From Geothrix sp. PMB-07 (GTDB lineage Bacteria; Acidobacteriota; Holophagae; Holophagales; Holophagaceae), in assembly GCF_030758935.1 (NCBI RefSeq), contig NZ_CP132333.1:3844992-3908991 (forward strand): a DNA stretch of 64,000 nt, read 5' to 3'. Position numbers and translations under genes: made by a program. Below are positions 12,565 to 13,370 of this stretch, piece after piece (position 1 is the first letter of the stretch; every line of letters begins with the position of its first letter). The notes under the pieces are model-generated. The model was not told the DNA's origin. It saw only the letters and a program-made list of their open reading frames with translations, and ran no database searches.

Positions 12565-12730
12565 CTACCGCAGCCACTCCCGGATGGCCGCCGCGGTGGG
12601 CACATGACCCTGGCTCTTCACCACCCCATCCACCACCAGACCCGGCGTGGTCATCACGCCCCGGGCCACGATGTCGGGGTACTCCGTGACTTTCACCAAC
12701 GTGTAGTCCACGCCGAGGCCCTGCGGCGCT
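12565..12730 (-). pseudogene. Thioredoxin-like redox protein fragment (C-terminal part only)
   Basis: This frame reads [52 protein letters not shown] before a stop. That is the C-terminal two thirds of the small thioredoxin-like proteins (TIGR00412 type) found in arsenic operons next to permeases. The N-terminal part with the redox CxxC is missing: upstream sequence changes abruptly into the permease fragment at about 12721-12730. With no active-site cysteines and no proper start, it is taken as a remnant created by deletion. Confidence 0.72.
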
Positions 12731-13099
12731 GACATAGAGGGGCACACCGATGAGGACGGCCAGGGGCACGCTCCACCAGGCGGACTTGCCCATGAAGCGG
12801 GCCAGCAGTTCCGCAGGCACGTAACCGTGAAGGAAGGCCCCCACAGCGATGCCCGCCAGCACGTAGAGCCACACCTTGCCGACGATGTCGCGGGTGGCCT
12901 GCAGGGACTGACTCAGGCGGGCCGAGAAACCCTGTGCGGCACCCGCATCCACGGAGGCCTCCAAGGGGATCTCCATCACCCAGGCCTCCAGATGCCGTTC
13001 CATGCGGAGCTTCCCGATGATCCAGCCCGACAGGAAGGCGATGGGCACACCCACCCGCACGAAGCCGATGAAGAGGGGCACCGCGGAACAGGAACAGAA
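12719..13099 (-). pseudogene. ArsP-like/DUF318 permease fragment with internal deletion
   Basis: Reading from 13099: [20 protein letters not shown], a typical mid-permease segment, then directly [21 protein letters not shown], later [19 protein letters not shown] and [15 protein letters not shown]. Family members have about 40 residues (a SFLIxxPMVNE-type helix) between the first two blocks, so an internal in-frame deletion is inferred at 13037-13042. Roughly the first 100 residues are missing before FCSCS, and the last membrane helices are missing after GVPLY. The reading frame differs from those of the neighbouring arsC and thioredoxin fragments. It cannot make a working transporter. Confidence 0.75.
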
Positions 13100-13100
13100 G

Positions 13101-13370
13101 GGCGGGACAGCCTTCTTCGGCGCAGAGGGTGATCACCAGATCCACGGTGCCGGGATCGATGTCCGCCACGGCTTTGGAGCGGTGGGATGAGGCATCGATA
13201 CCCAGGTCTTGAAGGGCTTCCACTGCATAGGGGTTCACCCGCGTGGGCCTGCTGCCCGCGCTCTGGATGCGCAGCCCTGAGAACACCTGCCGCGTCAAAC
13301 CCTCGGCCAGCTGGGAGCGGGCGCTGTTCGCCAAACAGAGGGGAGGATCGAAGTCATGCGTGCCTCCCAT
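13101..13370 (-). pseudogene. arsC: Truncated arsenate reductase (LMW-phosphatase type)
   Basis: The 90 codons encode the N-terminal part of a thioredoxin-coupled ArsC. The CX5R loop is present (CLANSARS), with its helix QLAEGL, followed by [30 protein letters not shown] and [13 protein letters not shown]. At about 13100 the sequence jumps into a permease in another frame, so the last ~45-55 residues, including the C-terminal part of the fold, are lost. The first residues ([11 protein letters not shown]) also lack the usual hydrophobic strand before the active-site Cys. Its ATG directly abuts the acr3 stop. Loss of function is inferred. Confidence 0.75.

Follow-up and report, generated by a model that had tools for sequence, protein, structure and literature searches.

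Probable loss of the arsenate-reducing and methylating half of an ars operon in a Geothrix genome

Has an ars operon in this Geothrix genome (4.24 Mb, one contig) genuinely lost its distal half, or has the assembly skipped sequence that the cell still carries? A first-pass annotation of the 64,000-nucleotide stretch analysed here (the window, positions 3,844,992-3,908,991) had described the minus-strand genes beyond acr3 as fragments joined at three deletions and had offered both explanations. From sequence comparison with relatives, we consider it highly probable that the arsenate-reduction and methylation half of the operon has been eroded, and that arsenite efflux has been left.

Relatives with an intact locus carry the order arsR–cmd–acr3–(arsN1)–arsC–arsR2–arsM–permease (PF03773)–thioredoxin–tyrA. 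The sister genome G028, whose DNA is 86% identical to the window and which served as the main reference for missing DNA, has arsR1-cmd-acr3-arsC-arsR2-arsM-permease-thioredoxin-tyrA, as do many relatives, and the conserved ars layout is also found in G. fermentans, G. limicola, G. campi, G. oryzisoli and many others. In many relatives arsN1 sits between acr3 and arsC (the G. limicola gene at this place belongs to ArsN1 family B, NF040504, with 215.9 bits at a cut-off of 210); it is absent from G028, whose acr3 tail differs. The relatives' ArsM proteins score above the arsenite methyltransferase cut-off (NF008823). The G028 permease is full length (PF03773, ArsP_1, 239 bits) and scores below every named NCBIfam equivalog, its intact thioredoxin-like protein is of the ArsE/MTH895 type (TIGR00412, 95 bits, cut-off 62), and its ArsC matches TIGR02691 with 93.9 bits over profile positions 2-128 of 129. 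The window's operon shares gene order and chromosomal place upstream of tyrA with the intact loci of G. fermentans DSM 14018 (L024/L049) and G. limicola Red804 (L042), but without arsN1, arsR2 and arsM; its arsC and thioredoxin genes are incomplete, and the greater part of the permease is gone. The genes that are kept intact are the following.

14889..15278, minus strand: arsR (ArsR/SmtB repressor), above cut-off for PF01022 and NF033788, full-length G028 orthologue
14507..14842, minus strand: cmd, small carboxymuconolactone-decarboxylase-like gene with a Cys-rich tail, 86% identical to G028, full length
13371..14498, minus strand: acr3, arsenite efflux pump with an altered C-terminal tail, 93% identical to G028 over 356 aa
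11457..12518, minus strand: tyrA-like gene, full length (prephenate dehydrogenase N-domain, PF02153, and chorismate mutase, PF01817)

The initial reading of acr3 and arsR as intact therefore holds, since both have full-length G028 orthologues and profile matches above cut-off; the acr3 product matches TIGR00832 over its full length (443.8 bits, cut-off 282.8) and is thus a member of the ACR3 family. The cmd product remains below the family cut-off of PF02627 (E 0.0028). A Cys-rich CMD-like gene stays beside tyrA in L155 and L156, two loci without acr3. An Rfam scan of the window gave no matches.

Between acr3 and tyrA, alignment with the intact operons of relatives, the check proposed at the outset, resolved three junctions (sizes relative to G028) and the gene fragments that they delimit.

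13101..13105, minus strand: J1, 1,902-bp deletion of the arsC C-terminal part, arsR2, arsM and the N-terminal third of the permease
13043..13045, minus strand: J2, 120-bp in-frame deletion of 40 permease codons
12720..12721, minus strand: J3, essentially blunt 289-bp deletion of the permease C-terminus and thioredoxin N-terminus
13101..13357, minus strand: arsC pseudogene (TIGR02691), N-terminal 80-odd residues, start frameshifted, C-terminal part missing
12721..13100, minus strand: two pieces of a permease pseudogene (PF03773, ArsP_1), covering residues about 143-163 and 200-310 out of 377
12565..12720, minus strand: thioredoxin-like (TIGR00412/ArsE) pseudogene, C-terminal two thirds, CxxC lost

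The junctions were mapped to within a few bases, their parental sequences are present in 15-18 relatives, and together they account for 2,311 bp missing relative to G028. At J1, arsC runs through CAEEGCP(A) and then continues as permease [10 protein letters not shown], so that the switch after CAEEGCP is where the first-pass annotation had placed it; the whole genes arsR2 and arsM are lost inside this deletion. The skip of about 40 permease residues was likewise real and measures exactly 120 bp, its position being a few bases off the 13037-13042 originally given. The change from permease to thioredoxin, expected at about 12721-12730, falls at J3, and the arsC, permease and thioredoxin pieces do occupy three different frames. 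Each of the three is incomplete by its profile. The arsC ORF matches TIGR02691 with 51.5 bits over positions 4-87 of 129 only (the curated cut-off of 174.3 is unsuited to this lineage, the intact G028 ArsC also scoring below it), and the portion of ArsC past the second redox cysteine is missing, permease sequence beginning after CAEEGCPA. The permease pieces fall short of a full-length PF03773 domain, and the thioredoxin ORF, with 53 bits against the TIGR00412 cut-off of 62 and a match to profile positions 24-74 only, lies outside that family and lacks its N-terminal CxxC.

Two lesions had escaped the first reading. The ATG that normally starts arsC (13357, preceded by GGAGG) is shifted by one base relative to the frame of the remainder; an alternative ATG at 13370 upstream still opens the arsC ORF, again without the C-terminal part. 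The other lesion is a probable junction at the end of acr3, identified by its position and by the last five codons.

13371..13425, minus strand: J0, probable arsN1 deletion, acr3 tail continuing into what may be left of the arsN1 end

Most relatives' acr3 products end near CCPxxxP, and the tail in the window reads [21 protein letters not shown], ending ...WREGWKRMR*. Its last residues, WKRMR*, are similar to the WERML* with which ArsN1 of G002 and G068 terminates at the corresponding position. This resemblance suggests that a fourth deletion probably removed arsN1, a proposal less certain than J1-J3. A longer arsN1 remnant spanning the whole gap between acr3 and arsC was considered and dropped, as the alignments were no better than shuffles.

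If the contig had merely skipped three stretches of an operon that is intact in the cell, as an assembly or consensus fault would imply, the lesions would be artefactual, and three gaps within 400 bp are indeed unusual. However, the repeats at the junctions are imperfect and at most about 10 bp long, far below a length that collapses assemblers, the DNA lost at J1-J3 has no copy in the remainder of the genome, the window's other genes, where a comparison was possible, are intact and agree with G028, and the scars that relatives bear at this locus are different ones. The fault envisaged in the first-pass annotation is accordingly improbable. In the G028 comparison, the non-ars rows that were flagged appear to be overlapping or antisense frames or the edges of the stretch, as judged by eye. 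Window positions 2448-6200, 25296-30381 (mostly) and 34235-37557 are largely unmatched at the syntenic place in G028.

Genuine erosion, by comparison, agrees with what the rest of the genome holds and with the placement of the losses. A search for a second intact ars operon elsewhere in the genome found none. No intact ArsM was found elsewhere in the genome (the best generic methyltransferase match is 39% identical over about 110 residues), and of the 47 genomes of the genus that were searched, the only ones to give no ArsM match at E 1e-20 are the window genome, G036 and G064, which is 58% complete. Searches of the genome likewise returned no second PF03773 permease of the ars-locus type beyond the fragments, no other thioredoxin-type ArsC, and no ArsN1 outside the locus, the last in a search run without a positive control. 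One candidate for a second ArsC (L134) was rejected as a phosphatase-like protein beside polysaccharide-export genes. A protein of the glutaredoxin-type ArsC/Spx superfamily (PF03960) is encoded elsewhere and may provide another route of arsenate reduction. In a tree of tyrA, the window genome groups with G028 (99/94), with G. limicola outside (99/99); because the loci of both are intact, the losses are private to the terminal branch of the window lineage. None of the same-genus genomes searched shares the window's junctions; relatives with the same short forms, conserved and expressed, had been named in the first reading as an observation that would count against it. The locus thus qualifies as an eroded operon, with an intact orthologous locus in sister and outgroup and lineage-private lesions, and the earlier suggestion of erosion that leaves only efflux is borne out by the intact relatives.

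On the branch to the window lineage, at least three deletions (probably four) and a one-base frameshift in arsC would have removed thioredoxin-type arsenate reduction, ArsM-dependent methylation of arsenite, and both the PF03773 permease and the thioredoxin that partners it, leaving arsR, cmd and acr3 open; arsenite expulsion would be the sole arsenic handling remaining to the cell. In eroding bacterial genomes generally, deletions arise by illegitimate recombination at short direct repeats. As expected for such events, J1 and J2 each fall within an imperfect repeat of 10 bp: the parental ends of J1 share 4 bp exactly and match at 9/10 positions as an imperfect direct repeat (P 0.0008 against random pairs), and those of J2 match at 8/10 (P 0.0066 against random pairs), both P values being slightly generous because the best of tied breakpoints was taken and G028 stands in for the ancestor. 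Short imperfect repeats are thus found at two of the three junctions; no long exact repeats were found at any of them. As opposed to this pattern, J3 is essentially blunt, with one shared base between its parental ends, and the three junctions of the window lie close together. J1 and J2 could therefore have arisen at their short repeats, through illegitimate recombination or slippage during replication, a mechanism that J3 does not support.

The crowding of the junctions raises the possibility of a single episode of replication-template switching, in which three forward skips would have made all junctions at once. That they lie within 385 bp, in order and in the same orientation, with short repeats at two of them, speaks for such an episode, yet G036 and G012 show simple one-step deletions here, the arsC frameshift and the probable loss of arsN1 would each require further steps, and the codon pattern of arsC looks somewhat looser than that of the permease (changes at positions 1-2 in 9/16 versus 3/13 cases, small counts and not significant), hinting at different ages. 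We regard a single episode as rather unlikely, and successive deletions remain the preferred reading. That the deletions were repeated and not a slow decay, as first proposed, fits the retained permease and thioredoxin pieces, which show no other indels relative to G028 and in which lineage-specific changes fall mostly at third codon positions (small counts). Across the fragments, 14/32 lineage-specific changes lie at positions 1-2, compared to 43/134 in intact genes (P 0.22, small counts); the codon-position counts are too few to prove that the loss is recent.

Alternatively, the remnants might still be in use, for example as a short ArsC-like or membrane peptide or, in the case of the thioredoxin tail, as a tyrA leader. 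The frames are open for 225, 273 and 60 codons, and the 3' end of the thioredoxin gene is kept in several scars; against this, GC-rich DNA yields long ORFs by chance, the ArsC piece has lost its C-terminal part and its start frame and the thioredoxin piece its CxxC, and G066 and G009 manage without a thioredoxin remnant before tyrA. Continued use of the remnants is, on this evidence, very improbable.

Erosion at this locus is not confined to the window lineage. Three further species at the least (G036, G012 and G017), and probably five or more, bear different scars; the tyrA tree requires four separate scars, the window's included, and their breakpoints differ. In G036 (L023 11000-11800, minus strand), arsC is joined at about codon 17 to the end of the permease and the thioredoxin gene is intact; a small membrane-protein ORF lies between acr3 and the arsC piece of about 17 codons. 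In G012 (L032 5150-5760), the end of arsC is fused in frame to thioredoxin residue ~43, adding the last ~34 codons, and the fusion may still yield a working ArsC that has gained a new tail; this genome holds another ArsM and permease elsewhere. In G017 (L154 2750-4320), a 376-codon transposase-like ORF stands between a truncated acr3 and a thioredoxin remnant that starts from residue ~32. Reading by eye, the arsN1 end in G014 and G016 appears joined almost directly to the last thioredoxin codons. The draft genome G010 (L035) shows several breaks in its acr3, arsR2 and permease matches, reflecting either error or decay.

The window thus presents ordinary operon erosion by several deletions, moderately interesting since it recurs in the genus. 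It is a clean natural case of an ars operon cut to arsenite efflux, in which an intact sister defines every junction, and it warns against taking acr3 as a sign that arsC or arsM is present; repeated, independent losses of the module within a single genus could reveal the point at which arsenate reduction and methylation cease to pay. A literature search on Geothrix ars loci turned up passing mentions only. Elsewhere, under anoxic conditions, the methylarsenite that ArsM produces poisons neighbouring cells, and its export by a Paraclostridium ArsP has been proposed (PMC11653729). Akin to such modules of ArsM and an ArsP-type permease (PMC11653729), Geothrix relatives pair ArsM with a PF03773 permease, but the window has neither gene intact, and an ArsP-like substrate is putative for the Geothrix permease, which scores below the named equivalogs. 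By analogy, the joint loss of arsM and the permease fits this pairing, if the permease has that substrate.

On the right-hand side, several scars stop close to a short element that overlaps the thioredoxin stop codon.

12562..12567, minus strand: TAGGAT, likely -10 element of tyrA, proposed from its conservation upstream of tyrA

In the regions upstream of tyrA from 40 genomes, TAGRAT occurs just before the gene in 23/26 genomes with thioredoxin codons and in 10/14 without (background 0.005 per 45 nt); these counts are descriptive, the idea having arisen from the same data, and several of the 14 genomes without detected thioredoxin codons are close relatives, making the independent number smaller. 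Where thioredoxin codons are present, the TAG of TAGRAT is the thioredoxin stop. A scan upstream of tyrA found no sigma-70 consensus pair. In G066 and G009, where cmd abuts tyrA, both TAGRAT and any thioredoxin remnant are missing. Several scars end just short of TAGGAT, and selection to keep the tyrA promoter, with TAGGAT as its likely -10 element, would limit rightward erosion. More broadly, we tentatively suggest, as something that may well prove otherwise, that loss of the half of the operon with arsC, arsM and the permease is recurrent and possibly favoured in Geothrix, the right ends of independent deletions crowding against, and rarely crossing, a tyrA promoter lodged in the thioredoxin stop codon. 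The spacer from TAGGAT to the start of tyrA (12519-12561) is about 20 bases longer in the window than in relatives.
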